Shown in pieces: positions 2,794 to 21,115 of a stretch of DNA of 64,000 nucleotides; within the stretch, counting starts at the first letter, position 1; each line of letters opens with the position of its first letter. The stretch covers positions 1,302,001 through 1,366,000 of the forward strand of contig NZ_QGDO01000001.1 in the NCBI RefSeq assembly GCF_003149185.1, given 5' to 3'. Below the pieces are notes generated by a model that was not told the DNA's origin, did no database searches, and saw nothing but the letters and a program-made list of their open reading frames with translations. The DNA comes from Sediminitomix flava. Lineage in GTDB: Bacteria > Bacteroidota > Bacteroidia > Cytophagales > Flammeovirgaceae. A program made the position numbers and the translations under genes.

Positions 2794-5700
2794 TTACTGC
2801 TTAATAAATGTTCGACTCAATTTAGACTCCTCCGATTCTACTTGTAAAATGTAGACTCCAGAATTTAGATTCGAAACAGGGATTGAAGTGTTCAATTTCC
2901 CTCCAAACTTGTTTACTTGAAGTTCTTTCACTTTAATACCCAACATATCAAAGATTGAAATTGTTATCAGACCACTTTCAGTGTTCATCAACTCAAGAGT
3001 TAGTTGATCTTGAGTTGGTACTGGGTACAACTTCAAGTTTGCTTCTTCCATATTATTTGATGAAAGAATTTCAGTTACTTGAATCATCACCTTAGACTCA
3101 ACACTCAAACCATCAGGATCTGTTGCCGTCACTAAGATTTCAGCTGAACCTAACCTGATTGGGCTAATCAATAGATCAGAAGATGAAGCATAAACGTTTA
3201 CGGTTGCTGTACCATCTAAGGTATATTCATAAGTAAGCTCATCTCCATCTAAATCTTCAATCAGATTAGCATACGAAAGTAATTCTTGTCCATTTTTAAG
3301 GAACATGTTCATCTCATACACATCAGAGATTGCTGTTGGAGCTCTATTGACATCCATCACCTTCACTGCAATAGTATATTCTGAACTATTTCCGTATTCA
3401 TCTTCTCCTTGAAGTACAAATTCATGATTTCCTGCAGCCTCATAGTTAGGTGCATACACCATAGAAATCATACCTTCTTGAGCAGTCATTTCAAGATTCT
3501 CATAGTCATCTGCGAATGTATAAGTGAAAGTATCGCCTTCCATATCCATCACATGAACATTGAACATAAGCGTATCATTTTCATTTACAGAAAGTGATTG
3601 CGCTCCTTCAACGACAAAAGTAGGACCTTGATTAATATTCATTGAAATTGCTCTTTCCAAATAAGGGTTTATTGGATCATTTGTATTCACCATTAAAGTT
3701 GCCTCATTTTTAGTTGCCTCTGCTGCAGATGCAGTGAAATTAAGGTTGAGAACAATAGAATCTCCTGGAGCAATTTTTCCTTCTACCTCATTTTCCAACG
3801 ATACCCAAAGCTGCTCACCTTGTGTTTTCTCCATTGCTTTCATCATCCAAGTTGTATTCTCTAGGTCTGGAATAGATGTTATATCCAACCAAGAACCATC
3901 ACCTGAAAGGAAATAGAAACGATCTGAAACAGGTGTGTCAACAGAAACAGAACCTTGAGGTCTACCTGCTCCTAGTGGATATGCAACTGTCACGAAGAAT
4001 TCTTCGTTAGGGAAGAATTGTTGTGGCTCGTCTAACTCTATTGTCAAGTAAGAACCAACCTCATCTGCTTCTTCTATATTATGTTCGTAACTCTGCTGTG
4101 TAAGTACAGTACCTGTAGCTATTGAATTACCAGTAATTACATATACCATGATATCAGAAGAGAGTTTTTCATCTGGTCTAAACCACGTTTTAATATGAGA
4201 CAGATTAAAACCTTCTTCAGGAGCTACAAAACGAGTTGCAACAGAAAGTGCTTGTTCTGCTCCATAACCAACATAACCTGTTGGTTCTTCTGCATTGTCA
4301 TACTCCAAAATAGCATTGTAAGATTCCTCTTCCTCATTCACTGCATATACACTTGCAGCTGTATTTGTAGCTGAAATCAACTCCAATTCATTAGCTGAAG
4401 AAATTGCATTTGGAGAAACTTGAGCAAATAATGTAGTAGCTACTTCTGTTCTTTGGTAATCTATGCTAAGATCATATCTAAGCGTATCTTGACCATCTTT
4501 ATTACTCAATACTAATTCTCTTGTCTCTTTGTGAGATTTCGTATTTGCCAAAATATTGATCTCTTCATCTTGAAGGACTGCTGCTGGCGCAAGACTTACT
4601 GTTGCTGTAATAGGAATTGAGACAGAACCTTCCGCGAATGATCCCATGATCACTAACTGATCACTAATTGCAGTTATTGTCTGATCCCAAGGCTCGATAC
4701 CAACTCTCATTTTTTGACTTTGTCCTGGCTCCAAGATAAATGGCCAAGGAGCACTTGGCGTCCACCCTAATTCTGGAGTTACACCAGGCATTGGTCTTCC
4801 ACCAGGAATCATCAAAGTATAATACTCTACTTCTGCACCCCAGTTCTCAACGTAAATACCATTGAAAACAAGAATGTCATTACCTGTATTTTTCAATTCG
4901 AATTCTTTATAATACCTCTTATAAGCAAATCCGAATGGATCATTTGGATCTAAGTAAGATACAATATTTCCTAAATCTAACGCTTCAGGAGCTTCAAGAA
5001 CAGCTTCTCCTGTCACGGTCAAATCTACAGGAATGCTAAAGTTTGGAGTATCTACTGTATTGTTTTGAATGATAAATTCACTCAAATTAAATCCAGCATT
5101 CAAATTCGAAGCATCTACAATCATTGGAATAGCCTTCGATTCTCCTGCTTCAATTCTGTGTCTGTTGCCTGGCGTAAAAGTAATGGCCATTTCATGCTCC
5201 AAATACTTTTGGAATCCAGAAATAAAGATACCGTCAGAACCGTCCTTATTTTCTAAACCAACAATACCCAAATCTAATCTTGGAGGAGACATCATCGGTT
5301 GTTGCTCTCCTTGGTATTGATACTTGATTACACCGTTGTTGTAAATAATCGTTTGGAAACTATAGTTTGTTGCCAATCCGAATTTATCAAAACACTCGTT
5401 CCAAGTAATCACAATACGATCATCAAAAATCTGATGGAAAATACCTGATAATTCAGGGTCAGAGAAGATTCCTTCATATTGGTGAATACCGAAGAATGGA
5501 GCAATCAAACTATTTGGCTCTGACATCTTAGGGAAGTCTTCAGGGTCCATGTAAGGAGGATTGATACGAGGCTTAACAGTCGTAACCACTCCTTGCCAAC
5601 TTACCCAAAGTGTATCTGTAGGCTCATCATACAAGCTTACTTCAAATGGTAGAGGAATTGCATTCCAGAACTGTCCGTTATTTGAATACCAACTTAAAGG

Positions 5701-8700
5701 CGTTCTTACTCCTGAAGCAATGATATCTTCCCACTCATAAATAGGTCCATTTTCTTCTTTAGAAGTACGGTATGAATATGAGAATTTAGGAAGTGAGTTC
5801 ATTGACATTGTAGTTGCTACTTCTTCACCTTCGTACAACCACTCTACTCCCGACGTAATGATATCTAATGCTGAAGCACCCGTATTTTCTACAGTCACCA
5901 TTACTGTGTCAATAGTACCTGCTTCCAATGTAAGTACCACATTCTCTACATCTACAGCCATCTTTGGAGCATCTACAACTTCTGCCAATAGTTCAACCTC
6001 TAAAGTTTGACCATCAGAAGTCGTTATCGTCAACATATCTGACAATGAAGCTACTGCCTCTGTGTTTACACCCACTGTGATGTAGTTTGCTGTTTTTGCT
6101 TTCAACAAACGTGTATAACTATCATCTACTACAAAGTTGTTTGTTCCTGCCGCTACTGAAGTAATTTCTACTGATTTGTTTCCTGTGTTATTTACTGCAA
6201 GAATCATTTCTTTGGTAGCACCTTGGAATAACTCTCCAAACTGAAGTGAAGATACATCTGTTGCCAACACAACTTCTCCACCACCGTTTACTTCTACTTC
6301 CAGTTTTACGTTTGTAACAGGATTGAATGGATCGTTACTGAAAATGACAAGGTTTTGATACAAATCACCTTCCAAAGCATTTTTTGTGTCAATTACGACT
6401 TCAATTACCTCAGACTCATTAACGTTCAAGTAACCTTCTGTTTGAGAAATACTCTGTATCAATCTAGTTCCAGGATGTTTTACTCTGAAAACAGTCTCAT
6501 TATGAGTCAGTACGTTAGTAATTCCTTCAATAAGGTATTTATCTCCATTTACGACAAATGCGTCTTCATAATTACGGTCACCGATACCAATCACACCAAG
6601 TTCACGCTCTGGTCCGTACATTCCTTCTACATCTTTATAACGGAATTCAATATCTCCATTATCAAACAATGCTACTTGGAATGTAGCCGCTTCTTCAGGT
6701 CCCCACGCATCTACACCATACACATCTGTATATTGAAGGATAAATTTACCTGGCTCTTTCTTATAGTGAATAGTTCCACCACTCTTACGAATATCAAGTT
6801 CCCAGCCAAACAGTGAAATAATTCCTTTTGGTGCACAAAGCGGATCTAGCGCAGGAGGAGCACAGTTTCCTAGCGGTCCGTCCTTGTCTATTGTCATCGC
6901 TCCGAACCTTGTAATATTCCAGTTATGTACAACCTCATTGTAGAATGGGAAGTCAAATCCTAAGTCGATTTCGTAGTAGGTATAGTTTGGATGCGTTTTC
7001 CAGAAGTATTCCGTAATATTCTCTCCTGTCTCTGTGATATCTTCCCAAATGAAGGCATCAATCGCACCACCCTCTTTATTACTTTCATAAGAGTAACCAA
7101 ACTTATGTATATGTCTGTCTTCCTCTGTTACTTCTTGTACATAAGAAGGGATTTTATACTGCAATGGATAAGCTCCTGTATTTGTAATCGTGAAGCTCGC
7201 TGTAGCTGTTTGGTTTACTTCCATAGCTTCCAAACGCTGGATAGCAGGATCAAGAGTAATTTGAGCAGGCTCTGTACCTACACCAAATAATCTTAATACA
7301 TGTGTATTTCCTTTGTTATCTACTAGTCTTAACTCTGTATTATCATTACCTACTTCTGCTGGCGTATAAGTCACGGTAATGTAACCATAGTCACGTGCTT
7401 TGATTCCCCATTGCCATCCTAAATAATGAACTTCGAACTGAGGATCATTTGTCGTTACTTGTGCACTAGAAAAGTTACCATAACCAAAGTTTGTTACAGG
7501 AATAATCAGCGTACGTTGCTCTCCAAAAAATACATTTCCGAAGTCTACGATATCAACACTTTTCAACTCAGGCTCTTGTCCAGAAACTTCAATAGATACT
7601 GGCAAACGTACCTCTGCCTCATCATTGTCATTTGATTGTACAAGAATATTTGCTTGATAAGAACCATTGATAAGCTCTGTTGCATCTACCTCCATCTGTA
7701 CTGTTCCTGTCTCTCCAGATGAAACTTTACCTTCAGTAGGCGTTAAAGTAATATACTCTCCTAGGTGATCATTTTTACTGAAAAGTTTAGTAGACCACAC
7801 TTTTTTATCATCATAGATATCATCTAATGCTTCCCAAGTTTCTCCTAAATCAAAACTCATGAATGCATTTGTAGAATTCTCTTCAGCAAGTTCATTAGAG
7901 ACACCTAAACAATAGCCATTGCCTGCCGGGATGTGGAACACAACCCAAATCGTTTCTCCATTTTCAAACTGAATTTGCTCTTCAAGAGTAATCGCTCTTG
8001 TAATAGGGTCTGCACTTGGGTTTACTACTTCTTGTGCATAATATAAGTTCTCTTTCTTAAGCTCCTCCCCTCTATAAATTTCCATGATAGCAGGACCTAT
8101 TTCAGGATTTGCTACCAAAGTCATTTCAACATCTGTAAGGTTAAAACCATTCTCTCTATCAATTACAAAACGTAATGCAGAAGAGTTGGTCATAGTCGTA
8201 TCCACATTACCAATAACTCCTAAACCATCGTCACCATATCTTAGCGTATCCTTGAAGTTATATAACTCTACCTTCTCAAGAAGTTCTCCTCCGATCTGAT
8301 TATTATATAATCTTGCACCTACACCACCTCTTACACTTGAAGCTGATGTAATTGTTTTCGGATAATTTAGAGAAACAGCATATTGTTGGTACTCCTGCGT
8401 TTTATGACGCATCATTGCTTTCCACTTCAATTCACCTTCATCAAGGTTTTCCATGGTAAACTGTCCCGTCGTACGGAAACCATTGCTTTCGTTTGCACTT
8501 AAGCTTACACTTTCGTCTACAAGATTAATATCTGGTCCACGGTTCGTTGTACCACTTACTGCATTCGAGAAACCTGAAACATTTGCCCAACGGTCAGCTG
8601 CAAGTACTACTACATGGTAAGTAGTTAATGAATTCAAGCCTTCCAATTCGAATTCAATCATTTCACCAGCTGGTACTTTGTTCACAAAGTTCACCATTGT

Positions 8701-10371
8701 TGCCTCTGAAAGATTAGCTTCTGTAATTTCTTCCGTGTGATAATACACTTGGAAACTTGATGGGAAATCATCATCCGAATCAGTTGGAACAGTCCATGTT
8801 AAATTAAAGAAGTCTTGAGCAGCTCCTTTCAATACAAGGTCTGTGATTTCTTCTGGATGTGCACCCTCATTTTTCTTCAAAGTAAGTGCAGCATCAATAT
8901 ACCCAACACCTAATTTACCTATAAAATCAGGGTTATACTGATCAATGTTATGTGTAGAACTTGTTAGGTATACTTCTAAGGCATCAGCAGTAAAACTTGG
9001 ACCTCCGTGTTGAGATACAGCCAAAGCAGCGATACCTGAAACGTGAGGACAAGCCATTGAAGTACCTTGACTAAAACCATAAGAGTTGTTCGGTAAAGTA
9101 CTCAATACACCTGAATTTTGACCTAAAGATTGGTCACCTCCTGGTGCTGAAATATCTACCCAATCACCAAAACAAGAGTAATAAGCAATACGGTTATCTG
9201 GTCCTAAAGCAGAAACTGTAAATACTTGAGGCCAGTAACCTGGATACATTTCATCATCGATCGCGTCATTACCAGAAGCAAAAATCACGATACCACCTTG
9301 CATTGGGCTACCTTCGTAATTACCAGCTTCAGCAATAAAGTAGTTGATCGCATCTAAAACACTGCTTTCATAATAACCTGGTTGTCTATATCCCCAAGAG
9401 TTTTGTGAAATAACAGCACCATTATCAGCTCCATACACAATTGCAGCTGCATGTCCACCACTTCCTCCGTTCGTAAATACTTGAGAAGATTGTAGTCTTA
9501 CACCATCACCATTTCCTGTACCACCTGCTACACCAGCTACACCAATACCGTTATTGTTTACAGCTCCTACTGTACCAGCTACGTGCGTACCGTGGCTATG
9601 AGCTGTAATATCACCCGCATTGTTTACAAAGTTAAAACCATGAATATCATCAATATACCCATTCCCATCATCGTCAACTCCTTCTTCTCCATTCAACTCT
9701 GCATGGTTTACCCAAAGGTTATCAACCAAATCTGAATGCTCAGGATCAATACCTCCATCAACAATACTCACGATTACGTTTGATTGCCCTGCCTGAGTTT
9801 TCCAAGCTTCAAACAAATTGACATCTGCCTCAGGAGAGCTTATTTCCAACTGTCCTGTGTTTTCATAATGCCATTGATCTCCTAGATAAGGGTCATTAAA
9901 TGGTAATTCTTCCTCTGATTGTAAAGCAACATTTGATGCTTCATAAGGAGTAATCTCTCCTTCAATCAACGTTTTTTCCAGTACAGGCTCTACAAGAGCT
10001 ACTTCATTACTAGAAGAATAAAAACTTACTGCTTTTGTAGGGGCAACATCTGCAGTGTAAGTTACTTCATACCAAAGGTGTAATCCGTGCTTACGATGTT
10101 TTGCATCATGTTTTTCAGAGTATGGAAATACCCTCTTCATCCCTGTTACAGCTAAAGTCTGGCTTGTTGCATCAAAGGTCTGAATACCTGTTTTTACAAG
10201 TCCGTTTGTTTTAGCTGTGTTCAAACTACTCAAAACCGGAGCAAGCTGCGGCTTGAACTTGACTCTAACGACACCTCTCATCATGCCGTCTTGATACTCT
10301 TGTGCCCAAGACACTCCCGATAGGAGGAGTAAGGACAAGAGTAGAGTCTTAAATTTACTTGTGAATAACAT
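2794..10371 (-). CDS. Giant secreted subtilisin-like (S8) peptidase with T9SS type A sorting domain, copy 1
   Basis: A 2,525-residue protein. Signal peptide (residues 1-23, ending SWAQ); I9-like propeptide with the conserved block RVFPYSEKHDAKHRKHGLHL (80-99); S8 catalytic domain at about 196-480. The triad is intact: Asp205 (IVDGG), His260 (HGTHVAG), Ser438 (GTSMACPHVSG), with oxyanion Asn368. A Ca-binding-like loop (VDDDGNGYIDD) lies between Asp and His. Then come an Fn3 domain (about 505-610), several HYDIN/choice-of-anchor-D-like beta domains, two nidogen-like sandwich modules, cadherin-like repeats near 2,240-2,430 and a C-terminal T9SS sorting domain (LKLYPVPTQDQ, ending FIKQ). Expected to leave through T9SS and act at the surface or outside on proteins. 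Preceded by a 44-codon gene and the leader AAACCAATTCAA; shares this layout with the paralogue at 11167. Typical S8 peptidases are under a third of this size. Confidence 0.95.
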   Translation of the reverse strand: MLFTSKFKTLLLSLLLLSGVSWAQEYQDGMMRGVVRVKFKPQLAPVLSSLNTAKTNGLVKTGIQTFDATSQTLAVTGMKRVFPYSEKHDAKHRKHGLHLWYEVTYTADVAPTKAVSFYSSSNEVALVEPVLEKTLIEGEITPYEASNVALQSEEELPFNDPYLGDQWHYENTGQLEISSPEADVNLFEAWKTQAGQSNVIVSIVDGGIDPEHSDLVDNLWVNHAELNGEEGVDDDGNGYIDDIHGFNFVNNAGDITAHSHGTHVAGTVGAVNNNGIGVAGVAGGTGNGDGVRLQSSQVFTNGGSGGHAAAIVYGADNGAVISQNSWGYRQPGYYESSVLDAINYFIAEAGNYEGSPMQGGIVIFASGNDAIDDEMYPGYWPQVFTVSALGPDNRIAYYSCFGDWVDISAPGGDQSLGQNSGVLSTLPNNSYGFSQGTSMACPHVSGIAALAVSQHGGPSFTADALEVYLTSSTHNIDQYNPDFIGKLGVGYIDAALTLKKNEGAHPEEITDLVLKGAAQDFFNLTWTVPTDSDDDFPSSFQVYYHTEEITEANLSEATMVNFVNKVPAGEMIEFELEGLNSLTTYHVVVLAADRWANVSGFSNAVSGTTNRGPDINLVDESVSLSANESNGFRTTGQFTMENLDEGELKWKAMMRHKTQEYQQYAVSLNYPKTITSASSVRGGVGARLYNNQIGGELLEKVELYNFKDTLRYGDDGLGVIGNVDTTMTNSSALRFVIDRENGFNLTDVEMTLVANPEIGPAIMEIYRGEELKKENLYYAQEVVNPSADPITRAITLEEQIQFENGETIWVVFHIPAGNGYCLGVSNELAEENSTNAFMSFDLGETWEALDDIYDDKKVWSTKLFSKNDHLGEYITLTPTEGKVSSGETGTVQMEVDATELINGSYQANILVQSNDNDEAEVRLPVSIEVSGQEPELKSVDIVDFGNVFFGEQRTLIIPVTNFGYGNFSSAQVTTNDPQFEVHYLGWQWGIKARDYGYITVTYTPAEVGNDNTELRLVDNKGNTHVLRLFGVGTEPAQITLDPAIQRLEAMEVNQTATASFTITNTGAYPLQYKIPSYVQEVTEEDRHIHKFGYSYESNKEGGAIDAFIWEDITETGENITEYFWKTHPNYTYYEIDLGFDFPFYNEVVHNWNITRFGAMTIDKDGPLGNCAPPALDPLCAPKGIISLFGWELDIRKSGGTIHYKKEPGKFILQYTDVYGVDAWGPEEAATFQVALFDNGDIEFRYKDVEGMYGPERELGVIGIGDRNYEDAFVVNGDKYLIEGITNVLTHNETVFRVKHPGTRLIQSISQTEGYLNVNESEVIEVVIDTKNALEGDLYQNLVIFSNDPFNPVTNVKLEVEVNGGGEVVLATDVSSLQFGELFQGATKEMILAVNNTGNKSVEITSVAAGTNNFVVDDSYTRLLKAKTANYITVGVNTEAVASLSDMLTITTSDGQTLEVELLAEVVDAPKMAVDVENVVLTLEAGTIDTVMVTVENTGASALDIITSGVEWLYEGEEVATTMSMNSLPKFSYSYRTSKEENGPIYEWEDIIASGVRTPLSWYSNNGQFWNAIPLPFEVSLYDEPTDTLWVSWQGVVTTVKPRINPPYMDPEDFPKMSEPNSLIAPFFGIHQYEGIFSDPELSGIFHQIFDDRIVITWNECFDKFGLATNYSFQTIIYNNGVIKYQYQGEQQPMMSPPRLDLGIVGLENKDGSDGIFISGFQKYLEHEMAITFTPGNRHRIEAGESKAIPMIVDASNLNAGFNLSEFIIQNNTVDTPNFSIPVDLTVTGEAVLEAPEALDLGNIVSYLDPNDPFGFAYKRYYKEFELKNTGNDILVFNGIYVENWGAEVEYYTLMIPGGRPMPGVTPELGWTPSAPWPFILEPGQSQKMRVGIEPWDQTITAISDQLVIMGSFAEGSVSIPITATVSLAPAAVLQDEEINILANTKSHKETRELVLSNKDGQDTLRYDLSIDYQRTEVATTLFAQVSPNAISSANELELISATNTAASVYAVNEEEESYNAILEYDNAEEPTGYVGYGAEQALSVATRFVAPEEGFNLSHIKTWFRPDEKLSSDIMVYVITGNSIATGTVLTQQSYEHNIEEADEVGSYLTIELDEPQQFFPNEEFFVTVAYPLGAGRPQGSVSVDTPVSDRFYFLSGDGSWLDITSIPDLENTTWMMKAMEKTQGEQLWVSLENEVEGKIAPGDSIVLNLNFTASAAEATKNEATLMVNTNDPINPYLERAISMNINQGPTFVVEGAQSLSVNENDTLMFNVHVMDMEGDTFTYTFADDYENLEMTAQEGMISMVYAPNYEAAGNHEFVLQGEDEYGNSSEYTIAVKVMDVNRAPTAISDVYEMNMFLKNGQELLSYANLIEDLDGDELTYEYTLDGTATVNVYASSSDLLISPIRLGSAEILVTATDPDGLSVESKVMIQVTEILSSNNMEEANLKLYPVPTQDQLTLELMNTESGLITISIFDMLGIKVKELQVNKFGGKLNTSIPVSNLNSGVYILQVESEESKLSRTFIKQ

Positions 10372-10377
10372 TTAAAA

Positions 10378-10389
10378 TTGAATTGGTTT
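10378..10389 (-). promoter_or_regulatory. Start-proximal leader motif AAACCAATTCAA
   Basis: On the minus strand the 12-mer ends 6 nt before the ATG of subtilase 1. The core AACCAATTCAA recurs at the same 6-nt distance before subtilase 2 (18724-18734), 2 nt before susC (51337-51348) and, as AACCAATACAA, 2 nt before the lipoprotein at 37456. The rest of the leaders is dissimilar, so the motif probably has a function in translation or RNA binding. Confidence 0.5.
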
Positions 10390-10556: not shown

Positions 10557-10691
10557 TTAATTATTCTTAGGTTTGTGATACTTTACATCAGCATTTTCTT
10601 CCAATGCTTTTAATAATTTCCTTAAAGCTTTTCCTTCCTCTTTAATTTTTTCCAAGAGTTCTTTTATCCTCTTATCATCCTGATCGCCCAT
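10557..10691 (-). CDS. 44-residue helical micro-protein preceding subtilase 1
   Basis: A short minus-strand gene: ATG at 10691, TAA at 10557. An in-frame TGA directly precedes the ATG, which fixes the start. The protein begins MGDQDDKRIKELLEKIKEEG and continues KALRKLLKALEENADV. It is charged and strongly helix-forming with a leucine pattern like a short coiled coil or amphipathic helix; no signal peptide or membrane segment. The counterpart at 18899-19036 matches 18 of the first 30 residues without gaps. The shared stretch ALRKLLKAL is encoded with different synonymous codons in the two copies (TTA/TTG, AGG/CGT, TTA/CTA), which argues that the protein sequence is selected. Function unknown. 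It sits 185 nt upstream of the giant peptidase gene, between that gene and a conserved promoter array, so co-transcription is likely. Confidence 0.75.
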   Translation of the reverse strand: MGDQDDKRIKELLEKIKEEGKALRKLLKALEENADVKYHKPKNN

Positions 10692-10755
10692 TCACTTTTT
10701 AGCTTTTGATTTCTCACAAGGATAATAGTCTTAGATTATTAACACCCTATTTTAC

Positions 10756-10850
10756 CACACTCAAAAAGCTATTTTCACCCATATAATAACACTCATCGGT
10801 ATTTTCAAGACCACTCACAAGCACTACACCTCAATGTTACACGACTGATT
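10756..10850 (-). promoter_or_regulatory. Conserved promoter array with phased GAGTG repeats, cassette 1
   Basis: Read on the minus strand the blocks are AATCAGT, 14 nt, GTGTAGTG, then GAGTG at plus-strand positions 10812-10816, 10790-10794 and 10758-10762. Centre spacings are 22 and 32 bp, close to two and three helical turns. The same blocks with exactly the same spacings occur at 19099-19193 before the second cassette, while the bases between them differ. This looks like a multi-site activator region; the core promoter is not identified with confidence. Confidence 0.6.
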
Positions 10851-11031: not shown

Positions 11032-11071
11032 AAAGCATCCTTGTTCTCTTAAAAAAGAACAAAGATGCTTT
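11032..11071 (-). terminator. Rho-independent terminator of subtilase 2
   Basis: A 16-bp stem (AAAGCATCYTTGTTCT with its complement, one wobble on the RNA) with an 8-nt loop is followed on the minus strand by TTTTTTTC. It ends the second giant peptidase transcript about 100 nt after its stop, in the same position as the terminator of the first copy. Confidence 0.85.
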
Positions 11072-11166
11072 ATTGGATTTTGGTCAACTCACTTATAATT
11101 TCAATTTGAATATACGGTGAGTTTGAGTAGAAATGGAGAGTGCAATACACTCTCCTTTCAAATCAA
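11072..11166 (-). other. Conserved structured 3' UTR of subtilase 2
   Basis: It aligns with 2697-2793. A perfect 8-bp hairpin GGAGAGTG/CACTCTCC lies at 11135-11155, and a longer one pairs AAACTCAC with GTGAGTT around 11083-11125. Conservation outside the coding region suggests a role in RNA stability or regulation, or a retained part of the duplicated unit. Confidence 0.55.
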
Positions 11167-14100
11167 TTACTGCTTAATAAATGTTCGACTCAATTCAGTC
11201 TCTTCAGACTTCAATTGTATAATGTATACCCCTGAAGCTAATTCTGAAATAGGGATGATGGTGTCTAATGTATTATTCGCTTTATTCACCTGAAGTTCCT
11301 TTATCTTCTCACCTAAAGTATTACGAATCTCAATAGTGAAAATACCTCTTTCTGTATTCTCAAGAGCTACTGTTATTTCATCTTTAGCTGGAACTGGATA
11401 AAGTTTGAACACTGACTCCGAAAGTGAATTTGCAGAAAGAATTTCGGTTACTTGAATTGTAACTTTTGTTTCTACACTTAAGCCTAAAACATCTGTTGCT
11501 ATTACCATTACTTCAGCTGTACCAACCATCATTGGTTTTACTAATAAGTCGGCATTAGAAGCATAAACATCTGCAACATCTGATTCCTCTAGCATGTAAT
11601 AATCAAAAGTCAATTCATCTCCATCAGGATCTTCAAACAAGCTCATAAAGTTAAGAGCTGTATCTGCTCCTTTATGGAATAAAGCCATTTGGTAACCTTC
11701 TGTCAATGCTAAAGGAGCTCTATTTACATCCATCACCTCAGCTGTTACTACATATTCCGATGCATTCTGATACTCATCAGCACCTTGAATGACAAATGAA
11801 TGCGTACCTGCCGATTCATAATCTGGTGTATAAACAAACGTGATCGTGTCTCCTTCTACACTCATTGATACATTGTCATACTCTTCTGCAAATTCAAATG
11901 ATGTAGCATCGCCTTCCATATCTACAGTGTAAATTTCAAAAGAAAGCGTATCATTTTCATATACAGAAAGCTCTGTTTCAGCATCAATCATAAAGATAGG
12001 CCCCTGGTTCATATGCATAGTTAAAGAATGCATAACGCTAGGAGTAATAGGATCATTAGTATGCGCAATTAAGTTTGCTAAGTTATCTATATCACGTACT
12101 CTGCTTGCATCAAAACTTAATTCGACCTCTACAGAATCACCCGCTGCAATTTCTCCAGACATTTCACCTTCAATCGTCACCCAGGCAGCTCCACCACCTG
12201 CAGTTTCCTCCATTGCTTTCACCATCCAACCAACATTTGCCAATGATGCATCAGATGATAAATCAACCCATTCTCCTGCGTAGAAGAAGAATTTATTTTC
12301 AGAAGCCTCTTCATTAACCACCGAACCTTGAGGGAATGGTGCATCAAACGGATAAGCAAATACTACATAGAAGTCCTCATTAGGATAAATATATTGAGGT
12401 TCATTCAATTCTACTGTCAAGTAAGAACCCACTGAATCTGATTCAGAAATTGTATGATTGTACTCTTGTTCAGTCAATAATGAAGCGTCTTCTAGATTAT
12501 CTCCTGCAACGATATACACTACAATATCCGAAGACATTACATCTAATGGTTGATACCAAGTTTGTACATGTGATAATGTAAAACCTTCTTCTGGAGCAAC
12601 AAATCTAGTAGCAGTTACTAAAGATTGTCCTCCACCAAATCCCATATAGATATCTGGGACTGAAGCTGTATCATATTCAATAACAGCATTGTAATCTCCT
12701 TCACTATCCTCACTAGCACCAAACACCTGAATATACTCAGAGGCTTTAGACTGCAATTCAACAGCACTATGGAAAGCTACTTCGTTGGTTACAAGACTTG
12801 TTAGACTTGTTGTTGTACTTACACGCTCAAAATCTAGACTTAAATCATACTCTAAAATTCCTTCACCATTTACATTACTCAAGAAAACTGTTCTTGTCTC
12901 TGTATGTTCTGGTGTATTTGCCATTACATCAATTTCATCTCCTTGGAACTCGGCTATTGGTGCTTTTTGTGCCATTGCAGAAATTGGCATCATGTAAGCT
13001 TCCTCTCCAATACTTGATTCGATAACTAAAGTATCTGCTATAGCTTCTACTTCACCTGTCGGTTGGAAAGTCACTCTTAACGCTTGGGAAGTACCTGGCG
13101 CAATATCAACCCAACCCCAGATAGGTCTCCATCCATAAGTACCCCATACAGGGTTAATCAAACCATACATCTCTACCATCATCTCTGAACCATCTTTCAA
13201 TGCCACAGATGATAATTGTAAATTAGCATGACCTGTATTACTTACTTCAAACTCATGATAATAAGTTTTTGGCATAGGATATCCATAATCATCTTCGCCC
13301 ATATAAGCCATCACCTTACCAAAATCAATTGAGTCTTCTGAAACAGTCATCATTGGATCACCTGTTACCTCAAGACTTACTGGGATCGTCAATTGAGGAC
13401 TAGCTACAGAGTTATTATGAATCGTAAATACACCATCATACATGCCTGCATTAAGACTGCTAGCATCCATTTGCATCGTAATTGTATTAGAAGAATTAGC
13501 TGGAATTTGTTGTCTTACACCTGGTGTAAATACAAGTGCTAATTCATGCTCTAGGTATGGTTGATTTCCTGCTACTAAAATACCGTCAGTACCATCTTTA
13601 TTTTCAATACCAATCACTCCCAAATCAAGTCTCGCCCAAGCAGGAGCATTGTACTGGTATTTAATTGTACCGTTTGTATAAATAATAGCTTGGAAGCTAT
13701 AAAAACCTGCCATTCCGTATCTATCTAAACCTTCGTTCCAGCTGATCACGATATGGTCATCAAAACTTTCGAAGAACACCCCTGAAACATCTGCTGTATT
13801 TTCAAGAACTTCAAAGAAGTGAATTCCAAAATATGGGGCAATGATATTATTTGGCTCCGCTACACTAGGAATTACATCTGGTAAGAAGATATCAAGTGGG
13901 TTAATCTTTGGACTAGAAGTCGTAATTACACCTGCCCAACTTACCCAAAGTGTGTCTGTCTTCTCTTGATACAATTCCACTTCAAATGGTAAAGGTATTG
14001 CTCTCCAATATTGTTCTTCATTATAGAACCACTCCATTGGGATTTTCTCACCTGTCTTCGTAATATCTCTCCACTGATACTTCACACCATTGCTCTCCTT

Positions 14101-17100
14101 AGATGTAGTGAACGAATAGGCAAACTCAGGTAATGATATAGAACTAACTTCAGCTATTGCTTCTCCTTCATACAACCAATCTGTCCCTTCGGTAATGATA
14201 TCAAGAACACCATTTCCAGGATTTTCAATTGTAAGCTCTACAGACTTTTTAGTACCCGCTTCTACAGTCTCTGAGATAGAAGTAATATCCACGACTATCT
14301 CTGGCGCATCTAATACTTCAGCCATAAGCTGTATTTCGTAAGTATCTCCTTCTGAAGTCGTCACGGTCAATACATCGTCTAAAGTCTTAACTTCTTCTGT
14401 ATTTATATTTACAGTAATGTAGTTTGACGTTTTAGCTGCTAATGCAGTTGAATATGTTGCTTGCTCAATTTCGAAACTTGAAGTACCAACTGTAGCTGAA
14501 ATAATTTCTGCTGATTTTGTTCCGATATTACTCAATGTAAGTGTCATTGACTTTTCAGCCATTTGGAATAACTGGCCAAAATCAAGCGTTTCTGTATTCA
14601 ATTCAATATCTACAACTCCTCCACTGTTGATATCTACTTCAACTTTTACACTCGTCTTAGGGTTGAATGGGTCATTACTAAGAATTGAGATATTTTGGTA
14701 GATTTCTCCTTCAATAGCATCTTTTGAATCAATTGTCATCTCGATATCTCGAGACTCACCAACCTGTAATAATCCTTCTGGCTGCGATACATTAGCCACT
14801 ATTCTAGTACCCGGATGCTTTATTCTAAATGAAGTTTCATTATAATTCAACTTCGGCATTTCAGTACTTCCGAACTCGTATTCATTAATCATGAACTTGT
14901 CGTCGTAATTACGATCTCCAATTCCGATCATCGCTTCTTCACGGTCCAAGAAGTACATTCCCTCTACATCAAGGTAACGGTACTCGATATCTCCATTCGC
15001 GAATAAGACCATTTGGAAAGTAATTTTTTCATGATCTCCCCAAGCATTAACCACATAGTTACCTGTATACTGAACAATAAACTTACCAGCCATCTTTTGA
15101 TAGTGTACTGTCCCTCCACTTCCTAGAATATCTAATTCCCAACCAAGACCAGTAATTACGCCTCGAGGAGCACATGAGATATCCACTGAAGGTGGTAAAC
15201 AAACTCCTAATGGTCCTTCTTTATCTATTGTCATCAAACCAAAACGAGTCAAGTTCCAAGTTCTTACAACTTCATTATAGAACGGAAAATCGAAACCTAG
15301 ATCTACTTCATAATAGGTATAATCTGGATGTGTTACATGGAAAAACTCTGTGATTTCTGTACCTGTTTGTGAAATATCTTCCCATTCAAATACTAGCTCA
15401 GAACCTTCTATTGTACTATTTTCATACGAATACCCAAACTTATGAATTAAGTCGCCATTACTAGAAGTTGCATCACCTTCTGTGTAAGCTGGAATAGAAT
15501 ATTGGAGCGGATACTCTCCTGTATTCGTGATGGTAAAAGTAGTTGTAGCTTGATCTCCTATAGCCATTGGCTCCAAAGTCTGTACAGCAGGACTTACAGT
15601 TATTTCAGTTGGAGCAGTACCCACACCAAATAAAGGAATAGAATGAGAATTTCCGTTTCCATCCATAAGGTCTAGACTCGTATTATGACTTCCTACACCA
15701 TTTGGCTTGTATGTTACTGTGACATAACCGTAATCACGAGCTTCAATTCCCCAAGCCCATCCAAGATCGTGTACTTCAAACTGAGGATCGTTTGATATCA
15801 CTGTTGCATTTGAGAATTTACCATATCCGAAGTTGGTTACTGGAATGATAAGCGTACGCTCTTCGCCGTAAAATACATTACCAAATTCTACGACATCAAT
15901 ATTTCTCAAGTCAGGCTTCTGACCTTTTACATTTACAGTGGTAGCAATACGAGTTTCTTTTTCATCATCATCATTTGATTCGATCAAGATATTCGCATTG
16001 TATGTACCATTAATCAGCGTCGTGGCATCAACATTAAACTGAACCATTTCACTAGAATTAGCAGATACTTGACCTGAAGCAGGCGTCAATGTTACGTATT
16101 CTCCCAAATGAGGATTGTTACTAAAAGCTTTCGTTGCCCAAACTCTATCATCACGATAAACATCTGCTAAAGGCTCCCAACTTTCTCCCAAGTCAAAACT
16201 CATGTAACTCCCATCTGATCCTGAAGGCTCTACTTCTGGACTAATACCTAGTGGGTATTGGTTCCCTGCTGGGATATGGAATACTACCCAGAATGATTCT
16301 CCCTTGTTAAAATAAAGCTGTTCATTCAAGGCAAAAGTATATAGATAAACGTAATCTAAATATGTATTCACTTCTTGTGCCAATAGTAGTTCTGCATCTT
16401 CAATAGAGGCTCCAGAATAAACCTCTAGGATTACAGGACCTAGACTAGGGTCACTTCCCAAGCCCATATTTACGTGTGTCAAGTTAAATCCATTGTCTTG
16501 AGTAACGTTGAAGCGGATAGCTGAGGAGTTTGTAATTGTCAGATCCTCTTCACCAATAGAACCTATAAGTTGACCATTACCTGACTGTATTGTATCTAAG
16601 TAATGCAACTCAACCATATCCGATTGTTGTATTCTAGCTAGAGGGTTTCTGAAACCTCGCTCTTTGATGCTTAGACTACTTTTAGCTAACGGACTAGCTG
16701 TAGGATAAGCTAGTGTAGAATAGTAATCGTAAGTATGATTTCGATGACGAAGTGAAGCTTCCCATTTCAACTCACCTTCATCAAGGTTTGCAATTTCAAA
16801 TTCACCTTCTGCTAAAAAGCTACTCTCTTCATTTACATCTACATAAATATTCGTCTGAGTAATTTCTATATCTGGCCCTCTATTGGTTTCTGCAGATACC
16901 TCATTAGATAAATCTGATTTATTAGCCCAACGGTCCAAAGAACGTACTGCCACGTAATAAGTAGTAAGAGAAGAAAGCCCTGAAATTTCTAGTTCTTTTA
17001 GGGTTCCTGCTTCATCTCTGTTATTCAAACTAATGATACCTGCATCCTCTAGATTATCATCCGTAATAGGTGATGTATGATAAAAAACTTGGAAATTTGA

Positions 17101-18717
17101 TGGATATCCATCATCCTCATCTGCAGGAACAGTCCATGAAATTGTCATGAAATCTTGAGCAACTCCTGTTACTGCAAGATCACCAATTGTTGAAGGTTTA
17201 ATTCCTTCATTTTTTAACAATGTAAGAGCCGCATCAATATATCCAACTCCCAGTTTCCCTGCATAATCAGGGTTATATTGATCAACATCATGTGTTGAAC
17301 TTGTTAAGTATAGTTCTAATTCATCCGCTGTAAAGTTTGGTCCACCATGTTCTGCGATTGCTAAAGCTGCAATTCCCGATACGTGAGGACAGGCCATTGA
17401 GGTACCATGAATATACCCATAAGTATTATTTGGTAGTGTACTCAACACTCCATTGCTTTGTCCATAAGATTGATCTCCACCAGGAGCTGATATATCAACC
17501 CAGCTTCCATAATTAGAGTAAAATGCAATCTTGTTATCAGGTCCCAATGCAGAAACGGTGTAAACCTGTGGCCAATAACCTGGATACATTTCATCATCTA
17601 CGGCACTATTTCCTGAAGCAAAAATTACGATACCACCATTCATTGGGCTACCTTCATACTGCCCTGCTTCTGCAATAAAATAATTGATGGCATCTAATAC
17701 ACTTTGTTCATAATAACCCGGAGAAGTATACCCCCAAGAGTTTTGTGAAATAACAGCTCCATTATCAGCACCATAAACAATGGCAGCACCCATGCCATTA
17801 CTTTCACCTGATTCTAAGAAAATTTGAGATGAAATCAATCGTACACCATCACCATTACCTGTACCACCTGCTACACCTGCTACACCAATACCATTATTGT
17901 TTACAGCTGATACTGTACCCGCTACGTGTGTACCGTGAGAATGAGCTACTACATTTCCAGAATTATATACGAAGTTATAACCATGTATGTCATCCACATA
18001 ACCATTCCCATCATCATCAACACCTTCTTCACCTTCAAGCTCTAAAGTATTCACCCAAAGGTTATCCATCAAATCTTCATGATCTGTGTCTATACCTCCA
18101 TCAACAATACTGACTATGATATCTGAGCTACCCGCTTGTGTTTCCCATGCTTCGTATAAGTTGACATCTCCTTCAGGAATACTTGGTGTTACCTGTCCTG
18201 TATTATTATAATGCCATTGAGAAGAAAGGTAAGGATCATCAAATGGCTCTCCATCTTCTGATAACGTTCCTATCTCATTTGACTCCAAGTAAGAAACATC
18301 TCCTGTAATGAGGTATTTTTCTAATACAGGTTCTGCCATTGCAACTTCATTTGTTTTTGCATAAGCTGTAACTGCTTGCAAAGGACTTACATTCGAATTG
18401 TAAGTTACTTCATACCATAAATGAAGACCATGTTTACGGTGTTTCGCATCATGTTTAGCTGAATAGGGAAAAACCCTTTTCATACTTGACACTGACAATG
18501 TTGTACTTGCGGCATCAAAAGCTTGAATACCCGTTTGCACTTGACCGCCACTAACCGTGACTTTCATACTATTCAACATTGCCCCAATTTGAGGTTTGAA
18601 TTTGACTCGGACTACGCCTTGTTTAACGCCATTCTTGTACTCCTGTGCCCACACTGATCCCATAGAAAATAGGATCAGAGACAAGAGTAAGACTCTGACT
18701 TTTTTAGATAGTAACAT
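11167..18717 (-). CDS. Giant secreted subtilisin-like (S8) peptidase with T9SS type A sorting domain, copy 2
   Basis: A 2,516-residue paralogue of the preceding peptidase with the same domain order. Signal peptide ends SVWAQ (residue 25); propeptide block RVFPYSAKHDAKHRKHGLHL; triad Asp206, His261, Ser440 with oxyanion Asn370, all intact; Ca-binding-like loop VDDDGNGYVDD. The remainder comprises Fn3, repeated HYDIN/choice-of-anchor-D-like and nidogen-like beta modules, cadherin-like repeats and a T9SS type A domain (FKLYPVPAKDEITV, ending FIKQ). The catalytic regions of the copies are very similar while downstream modules have diverged, so this is an old tandem duplication rather than a recent one. 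It is preceded by its own 45-codon micro-protein gene, phased promoter array and AACCAATTCAA leader. Likely role: extracellular or surface protein degradation; substrates cannot be predicted. Confidence 0.95.
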   Translation of the reverse strand: MLLSKKVRVLLLSLILFSMGSVWAQEYKNGVKQGVVRVKFKPQIGAMLNSMKVTVSGGQVQTGIQAFDAASTTLSVSSMKRVFPYSAKHDAKHRKHGLHLWYEVTYNSNVSPLQAVTAYAKTNEVAMAEPVLEKYLITGDVSYLESNEIGTLSEDGEPFDDPYLSSQWHYNNTGQVTPSIPEGDVNLYEAWETQAGSSDIIVSIVDGGIDTDHEDLMDNLWVNTLELEGEEGVDDDGNGYVDDIHGYNFVYNSGNVVAHSHGTHVAGTVSAVNNNGIGVAGVAGGTGNGDGVRLISSQIFLESGESNGMGAAIVYGADNGAVISQNSWGYTSPGYYEQSVLDAINYFIAEAGQYEGSPMNGGIVIFASGNSAVDDEMYPGYWPQVYTVSALGPDNKIAFYSNYGSWVDISAPGGDQSYGQSNGVLSTLPNNTYGYIHGTSMACPHVSGIAALAIAEHGGPNFTADELELYLTSSTHDVDQYNPDYAGKLGVGYIDAALTLLKNEGIKPSTIGDLAVTGVAQDFMTISWTVPADEDDGYPSNFQVFYHTSPITDDNLEDAGIISLNNRDEAGTLKELEISGLSSLTTYYVAVRSLDRWANKSDLSNEVSAETNRGPDIEITQTNIYVDVNEESSFLAEGEFEIANLDEGELKWEASLRHRNHTYDYYSTLAYPTASPLAKSSLSIKERGFRNPLARIQQSDMVELHYLDTIQSGNGQLIGSIGEEDLTITNSSAIRFNVTQDNGFNLTHVNMGLGSDPSLGPVILEVYSGASIEDAELLLAQEVNTYLDYVYLYTFALNEQLYFNKGESFWVVFHIPAGNQYPLGISPEVEPSGSDGSYMSFDLGESWEPLADVYRDDRVWATKAFSNNPHLGEYVTLTPASGQVSANSSEMVQFNVDATTLINGTYNANILIESNDDDEKETRIATTVNVKGQKPDLRNIDVVEFGNVFYGEERTLIIPVTNFGYGKFSNATVISNDPQFEVHDLGWAWGIEARDYGYVTVTYKPNGVGSHNTSLDLMDGNGNSHSIPLFGVGTAPTEITVSPAVQTLEPMAIGDQATTTFTITNTGEYPLQYSIPAYTEGDATSSNGDLIHKFGYSYENSTIEGSELVFEWEDISQTGTEITEFFHVTHPDYTYYEVDLGFDFPFYNEVVRTWNLTRFGLMTIDKEGPLGVCLPPSVDISCAPRGVITGLGWELDILGSGGTVHYQKMAGKFIVQYTGNYVVNAWGDHEKITFQMVLFANGDIEYRYLDVEGMYFLDREEAMIGIGDRNYDDKFMINEYEFGSTEMPKLNYNETSFRIKHPGTRIVANVSQPEGLLQVGESRDIEMTIDSKDAIEGEIYQNISILSNDPFNPKTSVKVEVDINSGGVVDIELNTETLDFGQLFQMAEKSMTLTLSNIGTKSAEIISATVGTSSFEIEQATYSTALAAKTSNYITVNINTEEVKTLDDVLTVTTSEGDTYEIQLMAEVLDAPEIVVDITSISETVEAGTKKSVELTIENPGNGVLDIITEGTDWLYEGEAIAEVSSISLPEFAYSFTTSKESNGVKYQWRDITKTGEKIPMEWFYNEEQYWRAIPLPFEVELYQEKTDTLWVSWAGVITTSSPKINPLDIFLPDVIPSVAEPNNIIAPYFGIHFFEVLENTADVSGVFFESFDDHIVISWNEGLDRYGMAGFYSFQAIIYTNGTIKYQYNAPAWARLDLGVIGIENKDGTDGILVAGNQPYLEHELALVFTPGVRQQIPANSSNTITMQMDASSLNAGMYDGVFTIHNNSVASPQLTIPVSLEVTGDPMMTVSEDSIDFGKVMAYMGEDDYGYPMPKTYYHEFEVSNTGHANLQLSSVALKDGSEMMVEMYGLINPVWGTYGWRPIWGWVDIAPGTSQALRVTFQPTGEVEAIADTLVIESSIGEEAYMMPISAMAQKAPIAEFQGDEIDVMANTPEHTETRTVFLSNVNGEGILEYDLSLDFERVSTTTSLTSLVTNEVAFHSAVELQSKASEYIQVFGASEDSEGDYNAVIEYDTASVPDIYMGFGGGQSLVTATRFVAPEEGFTLSHVQTWYQPLDVMSSDIVVYIVAGDNLEDASLLTEQEYNHTISESDSVGSYLTVELNEPQYIYPNEDFYVVFAYPFDAPFPQGSVVNEEASENKFFFYAGEWVDLSSDASLANVGWMVKAMEETAGGGAAWVTIEGEMSGEIAAGDSVEVELSFDASRVRDIDNLANLIAHTNDPITPSVMHSLTMHMNQGPIFMIDAETELSVYENDTLSFEIYTVDMEGDATSFEFAEEYDNVSMSVEGDTITFVYTPDYESAGTHSFVIQGADEYQNASEYVVTAEVMDVNRAPLALTEGYQMALFHKGADTALNFMSLFEDPDGDELTFDYYMLEESDVADVYASNADLLVKPMMVGTAEVMVIATDVLGLSVETKVTIQVTEILSANSLSESVFKLYPVPAKDEITVALENTERGIFTIEIRNTLGEKIKELQVNKANNTLDTIIPISELASGVYIIQLKSEETELSRTFIKQ

Positions 18718-18898: not shown

Positions 18899-19036
18899 TC
18901 ATTTCCCTTTAGATATATGAGATTTTTGATCTTGTTTCGTAGACTTCAGTGCTTTCAATAGTTTACGCAATGCCGTCTTTTCATCTTGAATTTTTTCAAA
19001 GAGTTCTTTTAGTTTTTGGTCATTTTTATCTCTCAT
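18899..19036 (-). CDS. 45-residue helical micro-protein preceding subtilase 2
   Basis: A minus-strand gene from ATG 19036 to TGA 18899, beginning MRDKNDQKLKELFEKIQDEK and continuing TALRKLLKALKST, with a basic tail. It is the paralogue of the 44-residue product at 10557-10691; the N-terminal 30 residues align without gaps and differ mainly conservatively (I/L, E/D, K/R, D/N), while the tails have diverged. A second in-frame ATG lies 12 nt upstream (19048), but the alignment supports 19036. Predicted to be a soluble, charged helix or coiled coil with no export signal. It precedes the second giant peptidase by 181 nt and follows the phased GAGTG array. Function unknown; possibilities include a cytoplasmic partner, a regulator, or a translated leader. 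Confidence 0.75.
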   Translation of the reverse strand: MRDKNDQKLKELFEKIQDEKTALRKLLKALKSTKQDQKSHISKGK

Positions 19037-19098
19037 ATTCCAGAGCATTTGATTTTACACAATGTTACAAATGCTCAATATTTTAACTTCATATTTAC

Positions 19099-19193
19099 GC
19101 CACTCAAAAACCTAAAAGCACCAATAAAAGACCACTCCGAGTAATTTATCAAACCACTCAAAAGCACTACACAAAAAATATAAAAAACTGATT
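19099..19193 (-). promoter_or_regulatory. Conserved promoter array with phased GAGTG repeats, cassette 2
   Basis: The blocks AATCAGT, 14 nt, GTGTAGTG and three GAGTG elements (plus-strand 19155-19159, 19133-19137, 19101-19105) repeat the order and exact 22- and 32-bp spacings of the array at 10756-10850. The last element is about 65 nt from the micro-protein ATG in both cassettes. The bases between blocks are not conserved, as expected for protein-binding sites. Confidence 0.6.
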
Positions 19194-19483: not shown

Positions 19484-21115
19484 TTATAATTCCAATAGAT
19501 AAGTTACTAGGTTTACATTCTTATTTGTAAGATTCAATTTCTTACGAATTCGTGTTCTTGCCACCTCAATACTTTTTACACTCTGATGAGTAATTGCTGA
19601 AATTTCTTTGCTACTCATATTCAACTTCAAGAAAGTACATATCTTAATTTCACCAGGCGAAAGGTCGGGAGCACACTCTTTCAGTTTTAAATAATAGTCT
19701 TCGTGCACTTGTTGGAAACGAAGCTCAAATTCATTCCACACATCGTCATTCGTACCGTCTTGAAGATCAAATATGATTTTCTGAATCATCTTATGATTTT
19801 CAGGTTTCATCTTGTTTTTCAAATTCAACAAACGCTCAGACACATTGCTGAGTAATTCATTTTTCTTCAATAAAAACAACACAGACGAAGCTAACTCTTT
19901 ATTCTTCACATCTAGATCTTGCTTCTTCAACTCCAGATCTTTTTCTAAACTTTCTTTAGCGAGTTGAATACGCTTATTTCTACTTCGGGCAAGTCTGTAG
20001 TACAAAACAGAAATAATACACCCTAAAGTTAAGATGGAAATAATCAAACCATATCGTAACTCCTTTTTCTGAACTTCCGCTGCTTGAATTTCTCTCTCTT
20101 TTTCAAACTCATAAGTGATCTGTAGCTCTGTTTGCTTACGAATTGAGCTTTCATTGAGTAAAGTATCGCTTAAAGTCTTGTACTTTTTAAACGCATCCAA
20201 TGATTCTTTGTACAGCCCTTTCTTTTCATAAATTTTAGAAAGCTCTACTAATGCTTCTGCTTCAGTTGGCTCTGCTCCTGCTTTTTTAGCCAATGGAATG
20301 GCCTTCTCAATGCTTTCTAATGCTTTATTTAATGAATCTACCTGAAAATAATAGGATGCGAAATAATTGTAAGACTTCGCCATTCCATTCAGATCATTGA
20401 TTTTCTGACGATGAAAAAGTGATAATCTTAGGTATTCTCTAGCCTTTGCGGTGTCTTTTAATTTAAGAGAAAGATAGCCCAAATTATTATAGATACTTCC
20501 TAAATTCTGATGATCTTCAATCAACTCGGCTTCCTTTACTCCTTTCAAATAATATTCGAAAGCTTGCTCATTTTCATCTTTTACTTCATAAATATTCCCG
20601 ATACTATTGTACAAGGTATGCACTTTACCATGTCCTGTTGACTTTCCTTCTACTTCAGTATTATGGTGTAAATACAAAGCTTTATGGTAGTACTCTAATG
20701 CTTCATCCAATTCTTTCATCTGAAAAAATAAAACACCAAGATTATGATAAAGAGGGAATAAGCTATTCGGCTCATTTATCTCTTCTAAAATCTTAAGACT
20801 CTTCAAATAGCTACTTAAGGACTCATCCAGATTACCAATAAACAAAAGGGCATCTCCTAACTTCAAATAGCTTTTTCCTATCAAGTCTTGATCATTTGAT
20901 TTTTTTGCTAGTTCTAAAGCTTGAATAGAATAATCGTATGATTTCCTAAGGTCATCAGCCCAATAATAGCCCGAAATTTCCCACAAAGAACTTACTCTTT
21001 CCTGTACACTTTCGGCATGAGAAAGCTGTGCAAACAAACTATCTTTTTTGAGTTGGTCTTGACCAAATAATACTTGTGGTAATAAAGCTAATGTGAGTAA
21101 GAGTAATCGTGACAT
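19484..21115 (-). CDS. Membrane TPR protein with C-terminal LuxR/GerE-type helix-turn-helix
   Basis: A 543-residue protein: signal peptide or first membrane anchor (1-18), about seven tetratricopeptide repeats (40-330), a transmembrane helix (356-373), a long coiled coil (375-440) and a C-terminal LuxR/GerE-like DNA-binding domain (485-543; LSPGEIKICTFLKLNMSSKE and SVKSIEVARTRIRKKLNL). This is a common Bacteroidota one-piece regulator layout: TPRs outside the inner membrane, DNA-binding domain in the cytoplasm. It has no kinase or receiver domain. The gene is monocistronic with its own terminator and lies just upstream of the two micro-protein/subtilase cassettes, so it is a reasonable but untested candidate regulator of them. 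Family call firm; target unknown. Confidence 0.85.
   Translation of the reverse strand: MSRLLLLTLALLPQVLFGQDQLKKDSLFAQLSHAESVQERVSSLWEISGYYWADDLRKSYDYSIQALELAKKSNDQDLIGKSYLKLGDALLFIGNLDESLSSYLKSLKILEEINEPNSLFPLYHNLGVLFFQMKELDEALEYYHKALYLHHNTEVEGKSTGHGKVHTLYNSIGNIYEVKDENEQAFEYYLKGVKEAELIEDHQNLGSIYNNLGYLSLKLKDTAKAREYLRLSLFHRQKINDLNGMAKSYNYFASYYFQVDSLNKALESIEKAIPLAKKAGAEPTEAEALVELSKIYEKKGLYKESLDAFKKYKTLSDTLLNESSIRKQTELQITYEFEKEREIQAAEVQKKELRYGLIISILTLGCIISVLYYRLARSRNKRIQLAKESLEKDLELKKQDLDVKNKELASSVLFLLKKNELLSNVSERLLNLKNKMKPENHKMIQKIIFDLQDGTNDDVWNEFELRFQQVHEDYYLKLKECAPDLSPGEIKICTFLKLNMSSKEISAITHQSVKSIEVARTRIRKKLNLTNKNVNLVTYLLEL

Follow-up and report, generated by a model that had tools for sequence, protein, structure and literature searches.

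The two short frames ahead of the tandem giant type IX secretion system (T9SS) subtilases in the 64-kb window, the whole stretch of Sediminitomix flava DNA analysed here, are real protein-coding genes of an unnamed family, and the microprotein-subtilase pair duplicates and is inherited together. Because the microprotein has been kept with one protease group through duplications, it probably does a specific job for these subtilases or for their switch.

Two microprotein genes and their neighbours in the window

A sequence-only reading of the window had reported 44- and 45-codon genes ahead of both giant subtilases, and both frames, with the gaps it gave, were found at the positions listed in Table 1. 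On the minus strand, the order of transcription is TPR-LuxR gene, microprotein 2, subtilase 2, microprotein 1 and subtilase 1. Each of the two subtilases carries Peptidase_S8_N, Peptidase_S8, Ig-like segments and a Por_Secre_tail sorting domain. The regulator has TPR repeats and, by eye, a membrane segment, and its GerE/LuxR match lies below the cut-off for that domain. The two units look like duplication products, with the upstream noncoding DNA conserved as well, and a single TPR-LuxR gene adjoins them. Since two terminator-like hairpins were found 3' of subtilase 2, where 0.2 were expected, unit 1 is probably transcribed separately from unit 2; a similar scan between the regulator gene and microprotein 2 found none. 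No Rfam family reached the gathering score within the window.

Table 1. Coordinates of the two microprotein-subtilase units and associated elements, in window positions
Feature	Position	Strand	Remarks
Microprotein gene 1	10557..10691	-	44 aa; family members and purifying selection
Microprotein gene 2	18899..19036	-	45 aa; 54% identity to copy 1 over query residues 1-41
Giant T9SS subtilase 1	2794..10371	-	2525 aa; start 185 nt 3' of microprotein 1
Giant T9SS subtilase 2	11167..18717	-	2516 aa; start 181 nt 3' of microprotein 2
TPR-LuxR regulator gene	19484..21115	-	543 aa; 5' of microprotein 2
AGTG-box array, operator-like	10758..10830	-	5' of microprotein 1; gapless conservation between both units
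AGTG-box array, operator-like	19101..19173	-	5' of microprotein 2; same conserved array as unit 1
Two terminator-like hairpins	11032..11155	-	3' of subtilase 2, between subtilase 2 and unit 1

The first 30 residues of microproteins 1 and 2 align without gaps, as the earlier reading held, but its count of 18 identities has to be corrected to 19, including Met. Two of its further details were confirmed: ALRKLLKAL is common to both copies and is encoded by synonymous codons that differ at six of the nine positions, and in copy 1 the ATG comes right after a TGA. The start of microprotein 2 is less certain, because a further in-frame ATG lies four codons upstream at 19048 (frame 18899-19048); the family alignment agrees with the start at 19036.

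A second short frame, with a GTG start, lies upstream in both copies (10747-10824 and 19075-19167), and the two versions can be aligned. It was rejected as a gene and read as the repeat array, because its AGTG boxes do not keep to one frame between the copies and the similarity already sets in ahead of the start codon.

A basic, predicted helical protein family

The members of the family are 41-58 aa long and mostly basic (predicted pI at least 8.0 in 25 of 26), with the core LIxxRKxExxALxKLLxAL. In alignment numbering, the conserved positions among the 26 sequences include I30 (23), R33 (21), K34 (23), E36 (24), L40 (22), K42 (24) and L43 (23). Two families of bacteria share the conserved residues of the central helix, and conservation is lowest in the tail. 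A structure prediction for one member, made with a three-sequence alignment, gave a helix spanning residues 2-37 at a mean pLDDT of 83.3, and the helical moment was 0.318 compared with 0.207 for shuffled sequences (0/500 shuffles as high). The microprotein is thus predicted to be a single amphipathic helix, in agreement with the helical product proposed from the window alone. It also looks cytosolic, as had been proposed, no signal-peptide-like start being seen by eye.

The two window members had no Pfam or NCBIfam match at the cut-off, and a scan of 16 of the 26 members at E 0.1 returned only scattered weak matches, the best being to DUF2508 (E 0.0044, three members) and an ISH6 transposase (E 0.00045, one member), for which the cut-offs were not shown. 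In a PDB sequence search, the best match had an E of 0.035 over 12 positions, and no stretch passed alone. Two candidate identities were rejected. Ribosomal protein uL29 had been raised by two chance matches; PF00831 finds one uL29 gene in each of eight genomes, none at the place of a microprotein, and the hhalign probability against the uL29 of those eight genomes was 0.7 (a value of 63.7 came from two uL29 sequences picked for likeness). For the coiled part of the regulator, the hhalign probability was 0.1. No published description of the microprotein was found in the part of the literature that was searched.

The microprotein marks one group of S8 subtilases

Six sequences from two genomes were made into a profile (A4), which was searched against a 390-genome sample of the order and gave 38 matches. 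Among these, 20 short-frame loci were inspected, and 17 have an S8 subtilase directly 3' (three of the 17 are in the query profile and 14 are not); homologues therefore do lie upstream of T9SS S8 peptidases in other genomes. A 16-sequence profile matched 28 places in 18 of the 390 genomes (E at most 0.02); 16 of the sequences at these places are themselves in the profile. The places comprise 24 before an S8 gene, one orphan and three unrelated matches (two to ribosomal uL29 and one in a frame of more than 850 aa), and all 24 S8-adjacent copies found by this six-frame search are on the S8 strand. The true members belong to family f1 (genera g1, g3 and g4) and family f19 (g26, g92 and g100), and we infer that g3 is Flammeovirga, so that the microprotein would occur in this genus and some related bacteria. 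A 395-genome sample of the phylum added two matches, in frames of 234 and 1183 aa, neither of them a true member. Outside the profile, Cytophagales bacterium Alg240-R148 shows the order TPR-LuxR, microprotein, S8; it is the one carrier among the 46 checked of the best 80 named loci fetched by S8 similarity, a sampling that undercounts named relatives.

We then read, on the S8 strand only, the 1 kb 5' of every S8 match with an E of at most 1e-60, 62 in total from 15 of the 18 genomes. Only microprotein-linked sequences went into the S8 profile (A7), so that the choice of relatives found is biased, whereas the state of those read is not. A microprotein lies directly 5' of 26 of the 62, with a gap of -4 to +185 nt, and these 26 units span 15 genomes and six genera with a similar protein length throughout. 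In five of them, the microprotein overlaps the S8 frame (ATGA or TAATG), and in both ATGA cases a second ATG in the S8 frame stands next to the first. The microproteins at L198 and L204 are weak matches (E 0.0004 and 0.04) of the right size and in the right place.

In a maximum-likelihood tree of the first 700 S8 residues (midpoint-rooted for drawing only), a single supported group of 30 (95/93) contains all 26 microprotein-linked subtilases, and none of the 32 subtilases outside it has a microprotein. The distribution takes four changes on the tree compared with a mean of 20.1 after shuffling (0/500 shuffles as low); long branches were flagged for L228 inside the group and L229-L231 outside it. 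The four group members that lack the microprotein are L200, L202, L203 and L228; among them, one is 598 aa long with a long branch, and one has, by eye, an insertion-element-like gene upstream. The link to giant T9SS subtilases that had been proposed therefore holds in other genomes but not for such subtilases in general, being restricted to one group. Even in the window genome, five of the nine giant S8 paralogues (about 2500 aa or more) are without a microprotein: the microprotein stands directly ahead of four, one of these copies sharing 4 nt with the subtilase start, a different gene (about 480 aa) takes that place in three, and the remaining two have neither. The one such upstream gene that was tested encodes a FISUMP-domain protein.

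Several other arrangements were seen. In the segment 37544-46673, the third giant T9SS subtilase of the window (2548 aa) has no microprotein and is overlapped at its start, over 23 nt, by a FISUMP-domain gene (TIGR02145, 45168-46673). This subtilase belongs to a tree group of 13, nine of which show, by eye, an upstream frame with a similar ending in a look that did not parse all 13; on the strength of these frames, distinct giant-subtilase groups may have distinct 5' partner genes. ACCAATT occurs within 80 nt 5' of the S8 start codon in 21 of the 62 S8 loci, with or without a microprotein, and ACCAATTC in 20 of these 21; in the window, ACCAATT stands at 10387, 18733 and 51346 (minus strand). 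The subtilases L200 and L202 (genomes G008 and G014) form a pair inside the microprotein group without a microprotein, clear repeats or an adjacent regulator. The orphan microprotein (L238:4536-4730, genome G003) follows a TPR-LuxR gene and well-formed repeats and has no adjacent subtilase in the stretch read; a transposase-like frame (by eye) and other frames lie 3' of it, and the next microprotein-subtilase unit is about 9 kb on.

Purifying selection and joint inheritance

That selection acts on the protein sequence, as the earlier reading had argued from the differing synonymous codons, is supported by seven pairs other than the window pair, for which no dN/dS is given because dS is saturated. 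Pooled, the seven (two of them distant, with dS 1.33 or saturated) gave dN 0.105, dS 0.444 and dN/dS about 0.24, and the nonsynonymous fraction was 0.544 versus 0.753 under neutrality (0/2000 simulations as low). Over 11 non-overlapping pairs, pN/pS was 0.31. The weakest single pair, L176-L177, is outside the seven and gave 0.240/0.472.

Distances between microproteins correlate with those between their subtilases (r 0.855; 0/5000 permutations as high), also among the 305 pairs with an S8 distance above 0.25 (r 0.63). Each duplicated subtilase keeps its own microprotein, both in the window and in genome G003 (L183 and L192). Along the S8 protein, the correlation stays at 0.72-0.91 throughout; it shows no sharp peak and is broadly highest for windows that start between residues 1020 and 1300. 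Of the 15 units that have a TPR-LuxR gene nearby, 14 were used to evaluate covariation with the regulator, the incomplete L199 being left out. Here r was 0.726 for microprotein and S8, 0.734 for microprotein and LuxR, and 0.950 for S8 and LuxR; the partial correlations were 0.137 for microprotein and S8 (295/3000 permutations as high) and 0.206 for microprotein and LuxR (76/3000). Covariation cannot separate the subtilase from the regulator as the partner, and leans slightly to the regulator.

A regulator gene and phased repeats accompany many units

The TPR-LuxR gene and the repeat arrays were absent from the earlier reading. Recognised by a motif pattern, TPR-LuxR genes lie within 1.4 kb of 15 of the 26 microprotein units (14 on the same strand), compared with 4 of the other 36 S8 genes. 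In the 300 nt 5' of the microprotein, direct repeats are raised at offsets of 11, 22 and 33 nt (z 7.5, 3.8 and 7.3), with z of 3-4 at the neighbouring offsets 12, 21, 32 and 34, in 19 dereplicated units (7 of the 26 were dropped as near-duplicates). Before 26 microprotein-free S8 genes (10 of 36 dropped), the 11-, 22- and 33-nt repeats are not raised (z 0.5, 0.8 and 1.9). An example of the repeats ahead of a microprotein is TGTAGCA N4 TGTAGCA N15 TGTAGCA in L193, about 115 nt 5' of the start.

The 11-nt repeat is not clear in L178, L184 and L198 (6 of 8 positions) and is absent from Alg240-R148 (L096; 5 of 8), and the two window units lack its strict form (best scores 5 and 6 of 8). These have instead AGTG boxes at 0, 10, 32 and 64 nt that are conserved between both; GTAGTGCTTNTGAGTGG with up to two mismatches finds only the two window arrays in the genome, and a reversed control occurs once. 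In the 600 nt upstream of L200, L202, L203 and L228, the best 11-nt matches are 6, 6, 7 and 6 of 8, with one 8-of-8 match at offset 22 in L228, and the motif pattern found no TPR-LuxR gene at these four loci.

Across 11 genomes, TGTAGYR-N4-TGTAGYR occurs in 28 places, half of them (14) microprotein units, compared with 11 for the reversed pattern. In L239 and L258, the pair precedes genes with a TonB-dependent-receptor-like start (by eye), and the repeat may therefore serve a wider regulon. The microprotein and its subtilase most likely belong to a single regulated operon, and we infer that the TPR-LuxR protein binds these repeats.

Discussion

The explanation that we tentatively prefer, while rating its chance as somewhat below even, is that the microprotein is a cytosolic partner of the subtilase before export, within the operon anatomy described above. 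As that anatomy suggests, the TPR-LuxR sensor would bind the phased repeats 5' of the microprotein and switch on one transcript carrying both genes, whose translation would be coupled where the frames overlap. In the least certain step, the microprotein would stay in the cytosol as the dedicated pre-export partner of its own subtilase: the amphipathic helix would bind the newly made prepro-subtilase, and the bound 2500-residue protease would stay soluble and inactive until export by Sec and then by the type IX system. The more specific idea of a cytosolic factor dedicated to a type IX cargo is rather doubtful; each subtilase of the group would then have a small helical guard of its own, which would be made ahead of it from their shared transcript and would co-evolve with it.

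Small cytosolic proteins co-encoded with a secreted protease, and thought to protect the cell before export, are known in the staphostatins and the streptopain inhibitor Spi, which are larger, beta-barrel or propeptide-like, and stand beside cysteine proteases. The microprotein resembles them in being encoded on the same strand with its protease, yet it would differ in fold, as a single short predicted helix, and its neighbour is unlike theirs in being an S8 subtilase, which already possesses an N-terminal domain (PF16361). Some T9SS cargo proteins have dedicated partners, described as cargo-specific shuttle proteins (PMC12618676) and PorP-like proteins (PMC9143113), and the partners named in the parts of the T9SS literature surveyed are envelope ones. 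The shuttles reportedly engage cargo after outer-membrane translocation; the microprotein, in contrast, shows by eye no signal-peptide-like start and has only 41-58 aa.

The microprotein could instead be a feedback regulator that binds the cytosolic coiled part of the TPR-LuxR protein, its DNA-binding domain or the operator, and so tunes expression of the unit, which we consider unlikely. The regulator gene is near more than half of the units, and the high pI recurs in nearly all members. This explanation is also favoured by the orphan that follows a regulator gene, the joint absences in four group members and the partial correlation, and the joint absence of microprotein, TPR-LuxR gene and clear repeats means that the microprotein may belong to regulation and not to cargo. 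The adjacent regulator itself shares TPR architecture and a DNA-binding end with SusR and BT3442-type regulators, its matches to NF058541 and NF053779 being far below cut-off; in the sections of the SusR literature searched, no regulator of this kind was described with a neighbouring microprotein. Against a feedback regulator, the motif pattern detects no adjacent TPR-LuxR gene in 11 of the 26 units, such a gene does lie near L206, L208, L229 and L231, four G003 subtilases from outside the group that are without a microprotein, profile similarity to the regulator is lacking, and a regulator acting in trans would not need a separate copy for each tandem subtilase. The tandem copies, each with its own microprotein, and the units without an adjacent regulator gene favour the pre-export partner. 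The 32 related subtilases outside the group that do without a microprotein count against such a partner, as does the dN/dS of L176-L177, which is not low. A TPR-LuxR gene and repeat arrays form part of many of the conserved units, and the microprotein may therefore have a regulatory role.

Quite unlikely, in our estimate, is a cis-acting leader, a frame that would be translated in order to open the subtilase start, to couple to it or to act as a sensor of translation, with little role for the peptide itself. The frame is short, close and directly 5', with stop/start overlap in some units, like the upstream ORFs that are described as controlling a downstream gene in other bacteria (PMC8092293, PMC12121999). 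Unlike these, the peptide sequence itself is under selection, with the central-helix amino acids conserved across two families, and the gap to the subtilase varies by nearly 190 nt. Stalling and attenuation leader peptides offer a further comparison: the microprotein conserves its central helix and varies in its tail, and no single-amino-acid run or stalling-type C terminus is seen by eye. That the frame was passively carried along with tandem subtilase duplication is extremely improbable. The window units are duplication-like down to their upstream noncoding DNA, but purifying selection on the protein and its persistence at similar length in 26 units of 15 genomes and six genera argue otherwise; on the basis of profile matches before S8 genes, linkage and selection, both chance and a duplication by-product were rejected.

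To our knowledge, the silencing and export competence of very large secreted proteases in type IX secretion are poorly understood. With repeats on its promoter side, the conserved 45-residue protein that accompanies a single group of 2500-residue subtilases offers a small, directly testable handle on this problem, and the microprotein family shows what size cut-offs in genome annotation can miss.
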